Below are positions 1 through 50,502 of a DNA stretch of 64,000 nucleotides, piece by piece; position 1 is the first letter of the stretch; each line of letters begins with the position of its first letter. The translations under genes and the position numbers were made by a program. The stretch comes from Companilactobacillus kedongensis (GTDB lineage: Bacteria; Bacillota; Bacilli; Lactobacillales; Lactobacillaceae). Below the pieces are notes generated by a model. That model had not been told where the DNA came from. It saw only the letters and a list, made by a program, of their open reading frames with translations, and did no database searches. The stretch is taken from NCBI RefSeq assembly GCF_003946625.1, contig NZ_RHOR01000006.1, positions 1 through 64,000 of the forward strand, read 5' to 3'.

Positions 1-147
1 ACTTCTTGTACATCAGCTCGGTACTTTGTCTTAGGCTTCCTTCAGATTCCACCTCGCGGTGAACACCCTTTCCCTCAACTAGTGATTCCGACTACTACGG
101 CTCACAGTGGACTTTCACCACCAAGTTAACACCCATGCCGGGCGCAC
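1..147 (-). mobile_element. Group II intron, 5' end (partial, runs off left edge)
   Basis: Read on the minus strand from 147 downwards, the sequence begins GTGCGCCCGGCATGGGTG, the classic bacterial group II intron 5' boundary (GUGYG) and start of domain I. It continues with GGTGGTGAAAGTCCACTGTG (positions about 125-106) and GGAATCTGAAGGAAGCC (about 52-36), both typical of domain I of introns that encode an LtrA-type reverse transcriptase. The rest of the ribozyme and the encoded protein would lie left of base 1, so splicing and mobility cannot be judged. The 5' exon is the structured repeat at 148-290; the intron entered it in antisense orientation. Boundary confidence is good because the repeat resumes directly at 148. 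Confidence 0.85.
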
Positions 148-290
148 TGAGGACCGATCCGAGTCTCCGTCTCGAATCTCGGTTTGAAGCCTTGTAAAGT
201 TCAACAAGTCTTCAAACACGCCCGATGGCGTAAGAGCTAAAGCTCTAACGCCAATACCACAGCTGGTAAATATTCTCAGATCTTCCAACT
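148..290 (+). repeat. Four-way-junction repeat, copy A (interrupted by the intron)
   Basis: Plus-orientation copy of the repeat family described at 37410. Visible parts are hairpin P3 (arms 182-195 and 205-218, GTTTGAAGCCTTGT with ACAAGTCTTCAAAC), hairpin P4 (arms 227-238 and 241-252, eleven of twelve pairs) and the right closing arm around 261-286. The left closing arm is absent because the group II intron starts at 147/148. It should lie beyond the intron, outside the window. Confidence 0.7.
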
Positions 291-334: not shown

Positions 335-388
335 AAAAAGGAGCTGTATCACGCTTGAGATAAATCAAGTATGATACAGCTCCTTTTT
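335..388. terminator. Bidirectional terminator hairpin between copies A and H
   Basis: Perfect 17-bp inverted repeat (arms 335-351 and 372-388) ending in A5/T5 runs, so it can terminate transcription from both sides. It would serve the operon ending at 522 and an unseen plus-strand gene to the left. The stem contains GAGCTGTATCA, which resembles GAGTTGTATCA of the hairpin at 37604. Confidence 0.75.
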
Positions 389-418: not shown

Positions 419-520
419 TAGCCGAAGATGACGTAAAGCTTGCCCGCAGTACAAGTGGCGTTATAACGGCGGTTTCCCGTTATTACAGCATGCAAGCCTT
501 TGCGCCATCGTAGGCGGATT
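419..520 (-). repeat. Four-way-junction repeat, copy H (shortened)
   Basis: Minus-orientation, degenerate member of the repeat family. A closing stem with mismatches pairs about 421-437 with about 498-516. One internal hairpin (P4-like; ATAACGG 463-469 with CCGTTAT 477-483) remains; the other two hairpins are missing. It directly follows the stop codon of the glycosyltransferase gene, as the other copies follow their genes. Confidence 0.5.
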
Positions 521-19827: not shown

Positions 19828-21126
19828 TTGATTATGTGCTTACAAGAAGAAACCAGAACCAACTTTATCCAAGCATTAAAAAATGGTGTAGTTCCAGCTA
19901 CCGGCTGTACCGAACCAATTGCAGTTGCCTTTGGAGCAGCAAATTGCCTAGCCTATCTGGAAAACAAAGATATTCAAAAAATTGAAATTAGTGTTTCTTT
20001 AAGTGTTATGAAAAACGCTATGGCAGTGATCGTTCCCGGTACTGGAAAACCCGGATTGTTGATTGCAGCAGCTACCGGTGCTATTGCTGGTGATCCAACC
20101 GCCGGATTGAACGTTATAGCCAACTTGACAGATGACGATTTACCTAAAATAAATAAACTCGTCGAATCTGGAAAAGTCTCTGCGAAAATAGCTCCGGTTG
20201 AAGATAAACTCTATGTTGAGGTTATCGCGACTGATAAAGAAGACACCGTAAAAGTTTGTATTGCTGGTGGTCATACTAATATCTTCTTAATTCAAAAAAA
20301 TGATCAAGTGATATTTTCTAAAAATCGCCCTGCAGCATACTCAGTTTCTGAATCACAGGAATTTCTTCAGACTGTAAAGTTCAAAGATGTTTGGAATTTT
20401 GCTCAAACTGAACCATTAGAAAATATTTTCTTCATTAAAGATTCGGCAAATTTAAATATGGCCTTAGTAGATGATGGTTTGACACATAGCTACGGACTTA
20501 ATCTAGGAAAATCTCTAAAAAACTCTCCTCTAGATTCAGCAACAGATGATTTCTCTAATAAATTAATTTCATACTCATCCGCGGCTTCAGATGCCCGAAT
20601 GGGTGGTTCCCAACTACCAGCTATGACAAATTCCGGATCAGGCAATCAGGGGATTGCCGCTACTGTTCCTATTTGTGTAACAGCAAAGTATGTCGATGCA
20701 TCAGAAGAACAATTAATACGTGCCTTGACCGTATCCCATCTGACTGCACTCTACATTCATGCCTTCTTACCCGTTCTATCAGCTTATTGTGCCGTAGATT
20801 CAGCTGCTATGGGTGCTGGTGTAGGTTGCGTTTATCTATTGAAAAATGATTATGAAATGGCTACTGCGAGTATTAAAAATATGGTGGGAGATGTTTCCGG
20901 AATGGTCTGTGACGGTGCTGGTTGTTCCTGCGCTATGAAAGTGGCAAGTTCCGTTTCATCAATGTATCGTTCCATGAATCTAGCTATTCAAGGTATCGTA
21001 ATTCCTGGAAGCAATGGTTTAGTTAGCGATGAAGTTGATACCACTATTCGTGGATTAGGAGTTCTTGCTACAGATGGACTTAAAGAAACCAATCCCGTTA
21101 TTTTGGATATTATGATGAGTAAGTAG
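19828..21126 (+). CDS. cyuA: L-cysteine desulfidase / UPF0597 (CyuA-YhaM-like)
   Basis: About 430 residues. Near the N-terminus is VVPATGCTEPIAVAFGAAN with the family's invariant Cys, and near the C-terminus CDGAGCSCAMK with Cys residues for the iron-sulfur cluster. The fold is that of the serine dehydratase alpha-chain family. Members break down L-cysteine to pyruvate, ammonia and sulfide. The start is uncertain: TTG at 19828 is 5 bases from AAAGG, ATG at 19834 is 11 bases away. Single gene, followed at once by repeat copy D. A near-consensus cre lies upstream. Confidence 0.85.
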   Translation: MIMCLQEETRTNFIQALKNGVVPATGCTEPIAVAFGAANCLAYLENKDIQKIEISVSLSVMKNAMAVIVPGTGKPGLLIAAATGAIAGDPTAGLNVIANLTDDDLPKINKLVESGKVSAKIAPVEDKLYVEVIATDKEDTVKVCIAGGHTNIFLIQKNDQVIFSKNRPAAYSVSESQEFLQTVKFKDVWNFAQTEPLENIFFIKDSANLNMALVDDGLTHSYGLNLGKSLKNSPLDSATDDFSNKLISYSSAASDARMGGSQLPAMTNSGSGNQGIAATVPICVTAKYVDASEEQLIRALTVSHLTALYIHAFLPVLSAYCAVDSAAMGAGVGCVYLLKNDYEMATASIKNMVGDVSGMVCDGAGCSCAMKVASSVSSMYRSMNLAIQGIVIPGSNGLVSDEVDTTIRGLGVLATDGLKETNPVILDIMMSK

Positions 21127-21133
21127 CCGGGTT

Positions 21134-21306
21134 TCCGCTTCCGGAAGTGAGGACTTCGTGCCTGCTGTGGAACCGACACGAACCAAGGTTTCGTGTCTCG
21201 ATTTTGAGCTTTGCTGTCGCAAATCTCAGAATCGTTCATGGTGTACGGACGAAATCGTCCTACGCCATTGTCACTGCTGGCGCGAATTCCTCACTTCCTC
21301 CAGCTC
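21134..21306 (+). repeat. Four-way-junction repeat, copy D
   Basis: Closing stem 21143-21162 with 21279-21298 (18 of 20 pairs). P2 ACACGAACC-AA-GGTTTCGTGT (about 21175-21195), P3 GATTTTGAGCTTTGC with GCAAATCTCAGAATC (about 21200-21233), P4 around 21238-21269. Sense orientation directly after the cyuA stop. Confidence 0.8.
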
Positions 21307-21333: not shown

Positions 21334-21375
21334 AAAATGGCTACATCTCAAATAATATTGAGATGTAGCCATTTT
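21334..21375. terminator. Bidirectional terminator between copies D and E
   Basis: 17-bp perfect stem AAAATGGCTACATCTCA (21334-21350) with TGAGATGTAGCCATTTT (21359-21375), shared by cyuA and the convergent DUF436 operon. Confidence 0.85.
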
Positions 21376-21408
21376 TGTATTGAATCTCATATATTAATAA
21401 ACAAAACG

Positions 21409-21575
21409 GAGGTTAAGAGTAATTCCACCAGTTGTGGTTGTGGCGTTGGAACGTTGGTTTTCCGTTCTTACACCACGGACGATTTGAAGATTTGCGAAAT
21501 ATGCAAAGCTTCAAATTGAGTCTTCGGACCTTGACCGAAGATGATCCCACAACAGGCGATATTACTCTTAACCGG
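21409..21575 (-). repeat. Four-way-junction repeat, copy E
   Basis: Minus-orientation copy after the DUF436 gene. The closing stem pairs GGTTAAGAGTAAT (21411-21423) with ATTACTCTTAACC (about 21560-21572). Internal hairpins: P4 GGCGTTGGAACG/CCGTTCTTACACC (21442-21474), P3 GATTTGAAGATTTGC/GCAAAGCTTCAAATT (about 21480-21516), P2 TCTTCGGACC-TTGA-CCGAAGA (about 21521-21541). Confidence 0.8.
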
Positions 21576-21584
21576 AGACCAAAT

Positions 21585-22142
21585 CTATTTTATAGGATCA
21601 TAATTAGCCCGAGGACCGCCAACATATTTAGGACGTGATCGTAACGCCGTTACATGTGCTGATCCTAAAGTGTCCTTTGTTGGGCGCACTGGAACTTGAA
21701 CGAACTTAACATGCATGCCTATAAAAGTATCACCTATATCCAATCCCGCTTGAGCGGTAACATGCTCCACCTCTACTGGATCTTTAAACTGTTTAAACGC
21801 CTGAATTGAAGCTGCACCGCCAGCATGTAAAGCTGGAACTACTGAAACAACTTCTAAGTTATTATGTTTAGCAACTGACTTTTCTACTACTAAGCTACGA
21901 TTAATATGTTCACAGCCTTGAACAGCTAGATTAATTCCTTTAGGAGTTAAATTAGCTAATAAAGTCTTGATGATGACTTCACCAACATCTAAGTTAGAAT
22001 CTTTCCCAATCCGTCCGCCTGCCACTTCACTAGTAGAACATCCCAAAACAAACAAATCGCCATCTTCTAAATTTGCGGCACCTAAAACATCTTTAACAAT
22101 ACTATCTAAATCATTTTCTATCTTATTTAAATCTACTACCAT
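21585..22142 (-). CDS. DUF436 / YwlG-family protein
   Basis: 185 residues. Recognisable family segments are [18 protein letters not shown] near the N-terminus, [15 protein letters not shown] in the middle (conserved Cys) and [19 protein letters not shown] towards the end. The biochemical role of this family is not established. It follows the ECF S-component gene by 10 bases, so it is the last gene of a vitamin-salvage operon. The DNA is followed by repeat copy E. Confidence 0.8.
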
Positions 22143-35762: not shown

Positions 35763-36649
35763 ATCTAATAATATCAACTATCAGCCAGGGCTTTATCTGG
35801 GCTATCATGGCTATCGGCCTTTACATCACATTTAGAATTTTAGATTTTCCTGATATGACCGTTGAAGGGAGCTTCCCTCTTGGGGCCGTCACAGCAGTCA
35901 TGCTGATCCAACATGGTTATTCAGCTGAAATTGCTTTACTTGTTGCCTTTATATTTGGTAACTTGGCAGGATTCGCTACAGCTTTCATGTATACTAAGTT
36001 GCACATCCCTAGTCTTTTAGCTGGAATTTTAACAATGACAGCACTCTATTCCGTCAACTTAAGAATTCTCGGTAAAGCCAATATGTCATTGACTAAACCC
36101 AATAATATCTTTAATCAATACGGTTTAAATAAATTGCCAGTAAACTTTAACGGCATCATTCTAGGAATCATTCTCATTGCCATCATTACTTTCCTATTAA
36201 TAATCTTTTTAAATACAGAAAAAGGCCAAGCTGTTATCGCTACTGGTGATAACGAAATCATGGCAGCATCCCTTGGTATCAATACAACGGTTATGAAATT
36301 CATCGGTATCATGGTTTCAAATGGTATCGTTGCTTTAACAGGTGGATTGATTGCGCAACAAAATGGATTTGCGGACGTTAATATGGGTATTGGCTCTATC
36401 GTTATCGGACTTTCAGCTATTATTATCGGTGAAGTTTTATACCCAGATGTTCCATTAAGTATCAGAATCATCACGATTGTAATTGGTTCTATCGTTTATC
36501 GTTTAATTCTAATGATCGTTCTACAATTAGGATTCAATACCAACGATTTGAAGCTTATTTCAGCCATTATTTTGGCACTATGTTTAGCACTTCCTACTAT
36601 TAGAGAACAATTCTTCAGAGCATTCAGAAACGGGGTCAAATCAAAATGA
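35759..36649 (+). CDS. trpY: Tryptophan-type ABC importer, permease
   Basis: 296 residues, eight or so membrane helices, BPD_transp_2 (branched-chain/ribose) family. The segment FPDMTVEGSFPLGAVTAVML near the N-terminus and MAASLGINTTVMKFIGIMVSNG in the ATPase-docking loop are characteristic of the TrpY/YufQ-like permeases. It overlaps trpX by four bases (ATGA) and trpZ likewise, so translation is coupled. Confidence 0.85.
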   Translation: MNLIISTISQGFIWAIMAIGLYITFRILDFPDMTVEGSFPLGAVTAVMLIQHGYSAEIALLVAFIFGNLAGFATAFMYTKLHIPSLLAGILTMTALYSVNLRILGKANMSLTKPNNIFNQYGLNKLPVNFNGIILGIILIAIITFLLIIFLNTEKGQAVIATGDNEIMAASLGINTTVMKFIGIMVSNGIVALTGGLIAQQNGFADVNMGIGSIVIGLSAIIIGEVLYPDVPLSIRIITIVIGSIVYRLILMIVLQLGFNTNDLKLISAIILALCLALPTIREQFFRAFRNGVKSK

Positions 36650-37395
36650 AACCATTACTAGAAATTAATGATGCAGTTAAAACAATTTATAATGATAATC
36701 AGGATCTAAATATTCTCGATGGGATCAATTTAAAAATCTATCCAAAAGATTTCATCGTTGTACTAGGAACCAATGGTGCTGGTAAATCAACCCTACTTGA
36801 TGCCATCACTGGTGCCAACAAATTATCTTCTGGTGATATCAAATTAAACGACGAAGATATCACTCAAAAAAATCTTGCTAAAAGAAGCCGTTATATCAGC
36901 CGTGTTTACCAGGATCCCAAACTAGGAACTTCCCCTAGAATGACCGTTGCTGAAAATCTTCTCCTAGCTCAACGTCGTGGTCTACCTAGAAGGTTGCGTT
37001 TACGAAAGTTGAACGACAATATGGCGAAGTTCAAAGAATTAACCAAAGATCTACCTACTTTGGATAATCGTTTAAATACTTTTACCGAAAAGCTATCCGG
37101 TGGTCAAAGACAGACATTAAGCTTCTTAATGGCAATCATTCAAAAACCAGAATTATTACTATTAGATGAACATACCGCTGCGCTTGATCCTCAAACCAGT
37201 CAAGAATTGATGGAACTTACTAGTAAAATTATTCTCGAAAAAGAATTAACTTGTCTGATGGTTACACATAATCTAACCGAAGCCGTTAAATATGGTAATC
37301 GTTTGATCGTTTTGAAAAAAGGAAAGGTTATTTTAGACTTAGATAAAGAACAAAAGTCTAAATTGAAGGAACAAGATTTACTTGAGTACTTCTAG
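36646..37395 (+). CDS. trpZ: Tryptophan-type ABC importer, ATPase
   Basis: 249 residues: Walker A LGTNGAGKSTLLD, Q-loop region SRVYQDPKLG, signature LSGGQRQTLSF, Walker B LLLLDEHTAALDP and H-loop MVTHN. The catalytic residue after Walker B is the normal Glu. Overlaps trpY by four bases. Last gene of the operon; repeat copy B and a terminator follow it. Confidence 0.88.
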   Translation: MKPLLEINDAVKTIYNDNQDLNILDGINLKIYPKDFIVVLGTNGAGKSTLLDAITGANKLSSGDIKLNDEDITQKNLAKRSRYISRVYQDPKLGTSPRMTVAENLLLAQRRGLPRRLRLRKLNDNMAKFKELTKDLPTLDNRLNTFTEKLSGGQRQTLSFLMAIIQKPELLLLDEHTAALDPQTSQELMELTSKIILEKELTCLMVTHNLTEAVKYGNRLIVLKKGKVILDLDKEQKSKLKEQDLLEYF

Positions 37396-37409
37396 ATTTG
37401 AGAGTCTCC

Positions 37410-37569
37410 AGGAATAAGAAAATCCACCTGCTATGCGGAACGGGGTGAGCCTTGGTCTCTCCCTCTCGGTTTGAAGCCTTGCAAGTTCAGCAAGTCTCCA
37501 AACTCGCCCGGTGGTGTAATGGCTTACGCCATAACGCCACTCTCATAGCTGGTGGATTTTCTTATTCCT
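37410..37569 (+). repeat. Four-way-junction repeat, copy B (best-preserved)
   Basis: Closing stem P1: perfect 19 bp, AGGAATAAGAAAATCCACC (37410-37428) with GGTGGATTTTCTTATTCCT (37551-37569). P2: GAGCC/GGTCTC region (37447-37459). P3: GTTTGAAGCCTTGC (37469-37482) with GCAAGTCTCCAAAC (37490-37503). P4: GGTGTAATGGC (37512-37522) with GCCATAACGCC (37527-37537). Conserved unpaired or junction sequence is CTGCTATGCGGAAC on the left and CATAGCTGG on the right. It follows the trpZ stop by 14 bases in sense orientation. Confidence 0.85.
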
Positions 37570-37603
37570 TCCGACTTGTTTGGCCTTTTAAATACTATAT
37601 TAA

Positions 37604-37655
37604 TAGGGAGTTGTATCACATCTTAGATAATCAGGTGTGGGACAATTCTCTTTTT
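37604..37655 (+). terminator. Terminator after copy B
   Basis: Stem AGGGAGTTGTATCACATCTTA / TCAGGTGTGGGACAATTCTCT region (arms 37604-37624 and 37631-37651, imperfect) followed by six T residues; would end the trpXYZ transcript. Confidence 0.7.
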
Positions 37656-37754
37656 TGGTTATATAACTAAATACTGCGTAAGTAATAAATATTTAGAGAT
37701 CAGCACTCACTCTACATGCACGGTAAATAGTAAATATAGTTGTAAAAACAAATA

Positions 37755-37790
37755 AAAAAAAGAGGCATCTCAATTAAGAGATACCCCTAA
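37755..37790 (-). terminator. Terminator before copy C (minus strand)
   Basis: AGAGGCATCTC (37761-37771) with GAGATACCCCT (37778-37788); on the minus strand an eight-T run follows. It would end the serine-hydrolase transcript. 37656-37754 shows nothing else I can name. Confidence 0.7.
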
Positions 37791-37804
37791 ATACAACTCA
37801 AATT

Positions 37805-37977
37805 AGTCGGAAGAGCTGAGAATATTTACCAGCTATGGAAGTGGCGTTATTGCTTCAGCAATTACACCACCGGGCGGTTTGGAAACTTGCAGAACTTGCA
37901 AGGTTTCAAACTGAGAGACGAGACCATGGCTCGGCTCGTTCCGCATAGCAGGTGAATATTATCAGCTCTGTAGACGG
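37805..37977 (-). repeat. Four-way-junction repeat, copy C
   Basis: Minus orientation. The closing stem pairs AGAGCTGAGAATATTTACC (37812-37830) with GGTGAATATTATCAGCTCT (37951-37969), 17 of 19 pairs. P4 GGCGTTATTGC/GCAATTACACC (37843-37865), P3 GTTTGGAAACTTGC/GCAAGGTTTCAAAC (about 37877-37910), P2 GAGACC-ATG-GCTC (about 37920-37932). It lies just past the stop of the serine-hydrolase gene. Confidence 0.82.
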
Positions 37978-37992
37978 GAAGCAAAATATAAA

Positions 37993-39144
37993 TTATTTCC
38001 CAAGAACTTCTTGAGTAACCTCTTTACCAAGAGAACCCATAGCATCCTTTTGTTCATCAGAATCACCATTTTGACTCATAACAACTAATACAAAAGCCTT
38101 ATTTCCGCGTTTAAAGATTGCTGCATCGTTTTCAACACCATATTGTGCATACTCACCAGTCTTATTGTAAACATCGACTACATTGGTATTTATATTAGCT
38201 GGTAATTTAGAATGATTACTTGTATTACTTAAAATCGACAACATTTGCTTATCGTATTTATCTGAAACAACATCATGCTGATAAAGTTTTCTCATAAACA
38301 TAGCTAAATCATGTGCCGTTGTCATATTATCTTTACCTTCACTAAGTGCATCTTGATCCATCAACATACGTTCCATTTTAGTATTACTACTCAAATCAAG
38401 TTCATCGATCTCATCGTTGACAGCATCTAATCCACCGATTTCCTTGGTAATAATATTAGCAGCAGTGTTATCACTCTTCGTGATCATGTAATCGATCAAA
38501 TCACGATATGTCAATGAGTCACCGACTTGCATGCTTTGAACGACGCCAGTTCCACCAACTTTATCTTCACTAGTTAGTTCATAACGGTCATTAAGTGAAA
38601 TCTCACCATCATCCACTTTTTGATAAGCGGCCGCCATGATATAAACTTTGATATCACTAGCAGCACGTTGAGAATCTTCATCATCTCCATAACTAGCTGA
38701 ATCATTATCATTTAAATTATAGTAAAAGGCTGAAGTATCACCTTTTATCCCCGCTAAATTGTTAGAAAGAAGCGACTTCACATCTGAATTTGTTTCAGAA
38801 TTATGCTTTTGTGAAGAATCATCGTCAGCATCAGATTGTTTATCATTACTATCAGATGAAGATTTGGTCTGTTCCGTCTGATTATTCTCATTTTTATGAT
38901 GAGTCATATAGTCATAGCCACCAGCGGCTACTAATAAAATAATAATAATCAGCCAAATAATCATTGACCTATTACTCTTCTTTGGTCGTTGTGGCGGTGT
39001 AGGTTGTGATTGTTGTTGCGTTTGTTGCACTGGTTGTTGTGGCTGTTTTTGTTCTGACTGTGTATTTTCAATTAGTGCTCCACAATTCTCACAGAACTTT
39101 GAATCAGCTGCATTCAGATGTCCGCATTTTTGACATTTAATCAT
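37993..39144 (-). CDS. Zinc-ribbon, membrane-anchored class A serine hydrolase (beta-lactamase-like)
   Basis: 383 residues. N-terminal zinc ribbon (C4-x2-C7, C18-x2-C21: KCQKCGHLN and FCENCGA), a Gln/Pro-rich linker, a membrane helix (about 63-80), a charged Ser/Asp linker, then a class A penicillin-recognising domain. That domain has SxxK (ASDIKVYI), SDN (TKSDNTAAN) and KTG (VYNKTGEY). No clear Glu166-type omega-loop motif is obvious, so wall-peptide binding or hydrolysis is more likely than antibiotic resistance. A cytoplasmic zinc ribbon joined to an extracellular hydrolase is common in lactobacilli. Good GGGG site upstream. Confidence 0.8.
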   Translation of the reverse strand: MIKCQKCGHLNAADSKFCENCGALIENTQSEQKQPQQPVQQTQQQSQPTPPQRPKKSNRSMIIWLIIIILLVAAGGYDYMTHHKNENNQTEQTKSSSDSNDKQSDADDDSSQKHNSETNSDVKSLLSNNLAGIKGDTSAFYYNLNDNDSASYGDDEDSQRAASDIKVYIMAAAYQKVDDGEISLNDRYELTSEDKVGGTGVVQSMQVGDSLTYRDLIDYMITKSDNTAANIITKEIGGLDAVNDEIDELDLSSNTKMERMLMDQDALSEGKDNMTTAHDLAMFMRKLYQHDVVSDKYDKQMLSILSNTSNHSKLPANINTNVVDVYNKTGEYAQYGVENDAAIFKRGNKAFVLVVMSQNGDSDEQKDAMGSLGKEVTQEVLGK

Positions 39145-48042: not shown

Positions 48043-48474
48043 ATGGAGGACAAAAAAGCTCAGGAGATAAATTATCTATTACATTCGATACTTTTTAATG
48101 AACAGAGATTATTTAATGAGCAGTCAACAAATTTAGATTTAACAGTACAACAGGCCAGAACACTAGAATTGATCCAAAAGGACCCCGGAATGATCCAGCG
48201 CGAAATTGCTGATGCTTTAAGTATTCGTGATGCCAGTGTTTCTAGTATGCTCAAAAACCTTGAACGTGACGGCTACGTTAAACGTCGAAAAGACCGACGC
48301 AGCGATCGCAATAAGCGGATTTTTTTAACTGATAAGGGTGACGAGATCATCAAAGAATTGGGGAATCTTTTTGAAGATGTCGAAAAACAAATTGTTAAGC
48401 CACTTGAAAATAGTGAAACTAAAGACTTACTTGTGCTTTTAAAAAAAATAGACGAGGAATTGAGTGAGGATTGA
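48043..48474 (+). CDS. MarR-family transcriptional regulator
   Basis: 143 residues. Winged-helix domain with IQKDPGMIQREIADALSIRD (helix-turn-helix), ASVSSMLKNLERDGYVKRRK (recognition helix) and DRRSDRNKRIFLTDKG (wing). The N- and C-terminal helices form the dimer interface. Divergent from the GNAT gene with palindromic sites between, so it probably represses itself and that gene. Repeat copy F begins soon after its stop. Confidence 0.88.
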   Translation: MEDKKAQEINYLLHSILFNEQRLFNEQSTNLDLTVQQARTLELIQKDPGMIQREIADALSIRDASVSSMLKNLERDGYVKRRKDRRSDRNKRIFLTDKGDEIIKELGNLFEDVEKQIVKPLENSETKDLLVLLKKIDEELSED

Positions 48475-48483
48475 TTCTGCCTT

Positions 48484-48660
48484 CCCGCCTCCGGTATGGA
48501 GTAATTCCACCTGTTATACGACCGACTCGAGCCAAGGTCTCTCGTCTCGATTCCAAGCTTTGCTTTCGCAAATCTCAGAATCGTCGGTGGTATAAGAAGG
48601 AAAACCACCTTCTAACGCCACTTGCATGACTGGTTCCAGTACTCCATACCTACGGCTATT
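48484..48660 (+). repeat. Four-way-junction repeat, copy F
   Basis: Closing stem GGTATGGAGTA (48493-48503) with TACTCCATACC (48640-48650). P2 GACTCGAGCC-AA-GGTCTCTCGTC (about 48522-48545), P3 GATTCCAAGCTTTGC/GCAAATCTCAGAATC (about 48549-48582), P4 GGTATAAGAAGG/CCTTCTAACGCC region (about 48588-48618). Sense orientation after the marR stop. Confidence 0.8.
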
Positions 48661-48681: not shown

Positions 48682-48715
48682 AGGACTACATTCAATTGAA
48701 ATGTAGTCCTTTTTG
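48682..48715. terminator. Bidirectional terminator between copies F and G
   Basis: AGGACTACATT-CAATTGA-AATGTAGTCCTTTTT; arms 48682-48692 and 48700-48710. Shared by marR and the convergent guaB gene. 48716-48800 shows no further signal. Confidence 0.75.
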
Positions 48716-48800
48716 ACATCAAAAAAAATCCCTTCACAACAATCAGACCATAATTCATCTGAAAATCATAAAGAGATCATAATAATATTTAAAATTAAGC

Positions 48801-48976
48801 TGGAGGTTCCGAGTGAGTTCACCAGCTGTGACAATGGCGTTAGAACGGCGAATTTCCGTTCTTACACCATGAACGACTTTGAGATTTTCGAACTTATGAA
48901 AAGCTCAAAATCGAGAACTCAGACCGTGGCTGAGGCCGGTTCCACAGCAGGTAAACTCACTCGGAACCGGAAGCGG
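48801..48976 (-). repeat. Four-way-junction repeat, copy G
   Basis: Minus orientation, after the guaB stop. Closing stem GGTTCCGAGTGAGTTCACC (48805-48823) with GGTAAACTCACTCGGAACC (48950-48968), 18 of 19 pairs. P4 GGCGTTAGAACGG/CCGTTCTTACACC (about 48836-48868), P3 ACTTTGAGATTTTCG/AAAGCTCAAAATCG region, P2 ACCGTGGCTGAGGCCGGT region (about 48923-48940). Confidence 0.82.

Positions 48977-48999: not shown

Positions 49000-50502
<1,503 letters not shown>

Follow-up and report, generated by a model that had tools for sequence, protein, structure and literature searches.

A large interspersed repeat with a four-way-junction fold, organised mostly as inverted pairs at gene ends in Companilactobacillus

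REP sequences and BIMEs have been proposed to act at the DNA level, as insulators or as binding sites for proteins such as gyrase and HU, and the enzyme linked to the spread of REPs is the Y1 (HUH; RAYT) transposase. Among repeats of other bacteria, BOX is modular, RUP resembles an IS-derived MITE, and the bcr repeats of the Bacillus cereus group are interspersed, structured and about 150 bp long; we know of no pairing rule for the latter. In the available portions of two accounts, REP dimers, REPINs and BIMEs are described as high-copy extragenic palindromes in which inverted dimers dominate and direct ones are rare; most REP families prefer heterodimers, their stems show complementary changes, and they lie mostly between convergent and unidirectional genes, near 3′ ends (PMC3733652, PMC2817692). 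Within the Lactobacillales, BOX, RUP and SPRITE of Streptococcus pneumoniae are structured interspersed repeats found in excess between convergent genes; roughly half of their insertions were common to all strains compared, and the available part of that account judges the elements parasitic, with slow transposition (PMC3049150).

Here we describe a structured repeat that occurs in many copies at gene ends of Companilactobacillus kedongensis. The window, meaning the whole stretch of 64,000 nucleotides that was analysed (contig NZ_RHOR01000006.1, positions 1 to 64,000), had been given an initial annotation from its letters alone, which claimed eight copies, A to H, seven of them with a closing stem P1 and hairpins P2, P3 and P4, or what the intron had left of these, and H reduced to P1 and P4. 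All eight were re-found by a covariance model and by single-sequence folds. The folds bear out the helices of the individual copies and the reduced state of H, and for copy B, whose P1 had been said to pair at 19 of 19 positions, they give 19 consecutive P1 pairs.

The complete module spans about 170 nt, with the long P1 and the three hairpins meeting at a four-way junction. An addition to the earlier description is what lies below P1 in most copies, namely a foot of 3 bp, usually GTC/GAC or GCC/GGC, and then a 3x3 internal loop that reads UCC/UCC or UAC/UCC. In the flank profile a T/G-rich leader of about 17 nt precedes the module and an A/T-rich tail follows it. Three subfamilies can be told apart, with 37 (I), 40 (II) and 41 (III) of 118 copies by nearest-consensus assignment: I (copies A, B and C) has a common P1, II (the D type) has a P1 that is hypervariable between copies and complementary within each copy, and III carries a second UCC/UCC loop within P1. 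The claim that P1 sequences are unrelated between copies thus holds mainly for the D type and fails for subfamily I, which has a P1 consensus. The four-way junction is the minimum-energy fold of 55 of 70 own-genome copies in the sense strand and of 37 of 70 in the antisense strand, against 19 of 210 shuffles. For copies of other genera the same test is weak (9/21 sense, 6/21 antisense, 32/210 shuffles); there the P1-P4 plan is visible by eye, and 9 of the 21 minimum-energy folds contain the strict junction. Two variant forms were seen. A nearly identical version in genome G031 (L224-L228) has, by eye, apparently lost P2, which would make it a three-way junction. Reduced copies of about 60-100 nt (L119:19739-19798, L127:5479-5538, L135:9422-9480 and window 420-515) seem to retain P1 and to have lost the core wholly or for the most part, like the core deletions in genome G023.

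The eight copies form four units in the window (palindromes are given without strand). The first joins copy A (148..290, plus strand, subfamily I; 82.2 bits in cmsearch over a model match at 125-290, junction read directly) to its inverted partner H (420..515, minus strand, P1 and P4 only; 29.6 bits, supported by fold and context), which starts 6 nt past the stop of the minus gene 522-1727; a bidirectional terminator palindrome read directly at 340..383 lies between them. The 5′ part of A is replaced by the end of a group II intron (window 1-147, minus strand), whose 5′ end is matched by RF02001 at 1-63. A second repeat copy (L010/L247, C18 end) carries a group II intron 5′ end at the identical position, the insertion point in both being after GGTCC[GT]CA on the antisense strand; the shared position in two different copies makes the repeat seem a recurrent intron target. 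In the second unit, copy D (21137..21305, plus, subfamily II; 153.4 bits and context) begins 10 nt past the stop (TAG) of the plus gene 19828-21126, and copy E (21404..21579, minus; 160.2 bits and context) begins 5 nt past the stop (TAG) of the minus gene 21585-22142. The bidirectional terminator palindrome between them, at 21337..21372, was read directly and has Rfam matches below gathering only.

The third unit begins with copy B (37404..37576, plus, subfamily I; 153.4 bits and context), 8 nt past the stop (TAG) of the plus gene 36646-37395, and ends with copy C (37805..37975, minus, subfamily I; 160.3 bits and context), 17 nt past the stop (TAA) of the minus gene 37993-39144. Between the two, direct reading gives an imperfect terminator-like palindrome after B at 37606..37650, of which a better-paired relative is retained in G023 where copy B is lost, and a second terminator-like hairpin before C at 37761..37788, with a below-gathering Rfam match to DicF. 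Copies F (48487..48657, plus, subfamily III; 160.2 bits and context) and G (48798..48974, minus, subfamily II; 173.4 bits and context) make up the fourth unit, 12 nt past the stop (TGA) of the plus gene 48043-48474 and 25 nt past the stop (TAG) of the minus gene 49000-50478, respectively. The terminator hairpin between them (48683..48709) was read directly and was missed by a permissive terminator scan. Terminators had been claimed between the partner copies, and palindromes or hairpins can be read in all four units; gene context likewise agrees with the placement of B, D and F after plus genes and of C, E, G and H after minus genes, always in the sense of the transcript.

The initial annotation proposed a genome search with a covariance model built from the copies. 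Such a model (R1, from 70 own-genome copies) found at least 150 non-overlapping copies, a lower bound because 150 of the 761 candidates received a score, and further copies were seen. In a genome of 2.27 Mb this is over 1% of the sequence. Simple sequence search of the same genome returned 44 matches with copy B and 49 with copy D, some of them antisense or partial. Across 35 other Companilactobacillus genomes the number of matches, antisense shadows included, was 22 to at least 46 in 14, 1-8 in 10 and none in 11. All 27 stretches named among the core-pattern matches belong to Companilactobacillus (own-genome records perhaps excluded), from the species tucceti, nantensis, keshanensis, hulinensis, baiquanensis, nodensis and huachuanensis. 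When 395 genomes of the order were searched with R1, 27 matched at 1e-6. Three of these belong to the genus and 14 to six further genera of the family, with scores above 100 bits in seven of the 14; the other 10, from other families of the order and at no more than 55.8 bits, may be unrelated palindromes. A 299-genome sample of the phylum gave no match except the own genome, and copy B had no match in the plasmid and phage collections. From the other genera, 15 stretches of seven genomes in four genera, with 21 copies, were read.

The initial annotation could not match the repeat to a described family, and this stands against both sources consulted. The 4227 covariance models of Rfam 15, run over the whole window at gathering score, returned tRNA and group II intron only and left the repeat unmatched; in E-value mode on the B/C and D/E units there were below-gathering matches only, mostly at the terminator hairpins. 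A literature search of titles and abstracts and of parts of a few full texts, with subscription papers outside its scope, returned nothing that describes the repeat.

The arrangement of copies is highly regular. Among these 150 copies of the own genome, 48 pairs of neighbours lie within 1 kb, of which 47 are oriented '+ -', one '+ +' and none '- +', and 42 of the 47 inverted pairs are 82-183 bp apart. The usual unit is thus an inverted pair with the 3′ ends facing, often flanking a bidirectional terminator. Gene context was read in 20 stretches of 13-20 kb and the window, with genes called by codon usage; of 160 model matches, 89 were retained as copies after manual inspection, and the others are antisense shadows. 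The gene upstream of the copy is in sense for 71 of the 89, antisense for 14 and not called for four, and 58 of the 71 sense copies begin no more than 50 nt past the stop codon (median 15). Among intergenic regions of at least 100 bp, an element occupies 31 of the 47 that are convergent (Fisher p 9e-12), 18 of the 95 that are tandem and one of the 51 that are divergent, and the smallest region that bears one is 249 bp. An orientation and 3′-end preference, whose absence would have told against the initial reading, is present in the sampled stretches. In tandem regions all eight pairs are '+ -', and single copies are sense in seven cases and antisense in three; in other genera, five of five close pairs among the 21 copies read are '+ -'. 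The persistence of this form in tandem regions and in other genera argues that the inverted pair belongs to the unit itself and does not follow only from the sense of the genes. The only '+ +' neighbours found are in a '+ + -' triple right after a tRNA gene called by ARAGORN (L137:14121-14781, C12), where the two '+' copies look like a tandem duplication.

Partners within a pair are no more alike than chance would have them (likeness 0.651 versus 0.644 for re-paired copies, with 76 of 300 re-pairings as high), and for the own genome we rejected the idea of a composite element that is copied whole. Pairs do combine subfamilies unevenly: 24 of 39 are II-III, against 12.4 expected (reached in 0/20,000 shuffles), two are III-III (p 0.007) and six are I-I. 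A typing by short motifs (21, 65 and 32 copies; II-III pairs 22 versus 14.0 expected, p 0.001) misplaced copies and was discarded.

At many sites, related versions of the terminator palindromes reappear between the two modules. With hits on either strand counted, a permissive scan scored a terminator-like hairpin in 77 of the 86 3′ flanks of elements and in 47 of the 86 5′ flanks. Split by strand, the 3′ flanks scored 59 (sense) and 54 (antisense) of 86, compared with 75 and 83 of 300 random 160-nt stretches and 135 and 100 of 258 element-free gene 3′ ends. A separate observation concerns the stop codons. TAG ends 41 of 70 genes before an element and 76 of 284 others (p 9e-7; 20 stretches and the window), and the orthologous stops read in G023 are at the same place, often as TAA or TGA. 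Stop-codon readthrough, which this excess might suggest, was rejected because B reads TAG-ATT-TGA and the orthologous stops are read at the same place.

The initial annotation saw in P1 the compensatory variation of a selected structure. In the 70-copy alignment 45 of 53 pairs vary on both sides, and 94.9% of cells pair versus 74.8% after shuffling. Double-change cells number 798 against 244.9 (sd 15.9) in shuffled alignments, a value reached in 0/500 shuffles, and at most 151 when the partner is slid by 1-3 columns; relatedness is not taken out by the shuffles, the slid control retains it and the difference is wide, although the structure was derived from the same 70 sequences. Covarying secondary structure is a feature of functional cis-acting 3′-UTR RNA, and the repeat has it. 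Selection on the structure is thereby supported against both controls, with the caveat that exchange between copies can contribute. Comparison of 18 orthologous copies between the own genome (G000) and G023 points the same way: 60 stem pairs are double-changed and still Watson-Crick and 621 are unchanged, while a further 18 changed on both sides in other ways and 5 passed from one non-Watson-Crick state to another. One-sided changes led to G-U 33 times, to A-C 23 times (p 0.23) and to other mismatches 37 times. Because changed stems stay Watson-Crick, pairing is maintained. In one orthologous pair the P2 stem was swapped on both arms, as exchange between copies would give.

Which strand is folding is a further question. 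An RNA that folds in the sense strand accepts G-U pairs but no A-C pairs. Over the 70 copies, leaving out columns with more than 10% of either, G-U (67) and A-C (69) are about equally frequent. Per helix and with all columns the G-U/A-C counts are 4/4 in P0, 31/45 in P1, 20/16 in P2, 34/16 in P3 and 54/9 in P4, so that P1 and P2 jointly have 51 G-U versus 61 A-C and P3 and P4 have 88 versus 25. Eight tRNAs from the fetched loci gave 16 G-U and no A-C, a small control and a biased one because the tRNA finder demands pairing. P1 and P2 are symmetric between the strands, and the lack of a G-U preference there makes a purely sense-strand RNA role doubtful; the conserved U-G positions of P3 and P4 favour the sense strand and may be inherited rather than repeated events. 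Mean predicted energies are -77.6 kcal/mol in sense and -79.4 in antisense, the sense fold being better in 29 of 70 copies (Wilcoxon p 0.047, favouring antisense). When G-U is forbidden, sense is better in 8 of 70 instead of 29, which shows a greater use of wobble pairs on the sense strand.

The history of the copies was followed in G023, taken as C. keshanensis 33-7, which holds about 35 distinct copies including weak ones (51 matches, shadows discounted by eye), with 10 '+ -' neighbours and one '- -' within 1 kb, also by eye. For 23 of 83 own-genome units a place could be found in the fetched G023 sequence, 14 with a match there and nine without, a proportion biased upwards because 30 of the G023 loci were chosen on account of the copies they contain. 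In G023, remnants persist of B (its 3′ end), of E (its 5′ end) and of F (a P1 lacking the core), and also at L038, L132:10442, L137:14121 and L131:18999; one at L131:10764 is doubtful, and none was seen at D, L014 and L051. Much of the difference between the two genomes looks like loss, often with the core gone and P1 kept, which also accounts for reduced copies such as H. None of the 10 G000/G023 sites compared was a clean empty site bearing a target duplication. With most of these differences resembling loss, we infer transposition mainly from copy number and from G031. There, among 25 matches, five modules set in different flanks show 0-2 differences over 153 positions, pointing to recent amplification. 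Near-identical copies with different flanks, as MITEs have, occur in G031 only; copies of the own genome are diverged. In L224, L227 and L228 of G031 both modules and the middle align, at 85.6-88.8% beyond or across the first module.

A mobilising enzyme was sought in two ways. Y1 transposase matches are present in 18 of 36 Companilactobacillus genomes, seven among the 15 that are rich in copies and 11 among the remaining 21, and the own genome has a contig-end fragment only; an HUH/Y1 transposase (IS200, RAYT) was rejected as mobiliser, its presence being without relation to copy number. An autonomous parent element was not found between the modules of three widely spaced pairs: C35 has ordinary genes there (by eye), C22 three small frames with no Pfam match, and C23 (L245:4152-4439) a Phd/YefM antitoxin frame. 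Past the element in L225 (G031), a frame that by eye is TnpB-like starts on the opposite strand next to what is left of the partner module and may belong to an IS605-type element adjoining the unit.

Two readings had been offered at the outset, a mobile repeat that spreads as an inverted pair and a 3′-UTR RNA element. The mobile repeat is favoured by the at least 150 dispersed copies, the 47 '+ -' pairs out of 48, the recurrence of that orientation in tandem regions and in other genera, the large differences in copy number between species and the near-identity in G031. A sense-acting 3′-UTR RNA would place the junction between stop codon and terminator, protecting the mRNA from 3′ exonucleases or aiding termination, and pairs would arise since both converging genes need one module. 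The position of the sense copies, 58 of 71 within 50 nt of the stop codon, fits such a role, as do the excess of terminator-like hairpins on the 3′ side (77 versus 47 of 86), the strong covariation, the conserved U-G pairs in P3 and P4 and a junction fold that is commoner in sense. However, tandem-region pairs keep one copy antisense and three of the 10 single copies are antisense, G-U is not preferred over A-C outside the columns where either is common (67 versus 69) or in P1 and P2 (51 versus 61), the predicted sense fold is the more stable in only 29 of 70 copies, and 11 of 35 sister species have no match. We therefore regard this reading as weakened and unlikely, an RNA effect at transcript ends being possible. 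A chromosome-level DNA element, in which the pair is extruded or bound as cruciform or hairpins where the positive supercoils of converging genes meet, as an insulator or protein-binding site, would agree with the strand-symmetric conservation of P1 and P2, the occupation of 31 of 47 convergent regions and the preference for II-III heterodimers. It has no known protein partner, 11 sister species are without a match, and the same symmetry follows from template switching or gene conversion; we give it a low probability.

A functionless, worn-out repeat whose stems are kept paired by quasi-palindrome correction and gene conversion between copies is a further rival, to which the P2 stem replaced on both arms between orthologues, the symmetric mismatches and the decay by deletion in G023 all speak. 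The nearly invariant unpaired letters of the module, its conserved wobble positions and its common plan in other genera suggest instead recognition by some factor, if only while copies spread, and make an entirely passive repeat improbable. For the favoured mobile repeat, copies would spread with the help of a trans-acting enzyme and would settle or survive where they are least harmful, between stop codon and terminator; vertical inheritance and partial homogenisation by exchange between copies would follow. The near-equal upkeep of P1 and P2 pairing on both strands points to a DNA-level step as the main keeper, which could be a single-strand hairpin, a cruciform or template switching, while transcript-end stabilisation and the separation of converging genes would probably be secondary effects. 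Against the mobile repeat stand the want of a clean empty site with target duplication among the 10 compared and of a mobilising gene (Y1 matches in seven of the 15 genomes rich in copies and 11 of the 21 others), the sense polarity of the U-G positions in P3 and P4 (G-U 88, A-C 25), the greater use of wobbles by the sense strand, the junction fold commoner in sense (55 versus 37 of 70), and the occupation of two thirds of convergent regions, more than mere tolerance easily explains. More speculatively, and with rather little probability, the paired modules could form a boundary device around a bidirectional terminator at most convergent gene boundaries, acting on DNA alike on both strands, separating converging transcription or topological domains, and spread by an enzyme that recognises the folded module. 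If so, the stems would be kept as Watson-Crick DNA palindromes, and partners of different subfamilies would avoid pairing too well together.

With at least 150 copies, and at two thirds of the sampled convergent boundaries, the repeat should shape both transcript ends and genome rearrangement. It would also be a Lactobacillaceae family with the inverted-pair and heterodimer logic of the REPs of Proteobacteria and a far larger fold, and thus a case in which one can test independently what favours inverted pairs and heterodimers, and whether repeats of this sort work at the RNA level, at the DNA level or at neither.

Compared with the described systems, the repeat is extragenic, of high copy number and dominated by inverted dimers, as REPs and REPINs are. 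In the available portions of their descriptions, however, REPs are hairpins of 20-40 bp tagged with GTAG or CGTC (PMC3733652, PMC2817692), whereas the present module has about 170 nt and a four-way junction; its flank profile has no constant GTAG or CGTC tag, yet many subfamily I copies start with CCGTC. The pair here also often flanks a bidirectional terminator, and the Y1/RAYT link of the GTAG type was not found for it in the 36 genomes of the genus. The main texts of PMC3733652 and PMC2817692 contain neither 'Lactobacill' nor 'Firmicutes'. As two defining REP features, the short tagged hairpin and the Y1 link, failed, the repeat is better said to be organised like REP dimers than called one. 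BOX, RUP and SPRITE are set apart by description only, no inverted-pair rule around a terminator being noted for them in the available part of PMC3049150, and the bcr repeats, of a different genus, were likewise compared by description only. In our assessment, the repeat is probably an interspersed structured extragenic repeat of the REP-dimer/BOX type, in a larger form with a four-way junction in the Lactobacillaceae.
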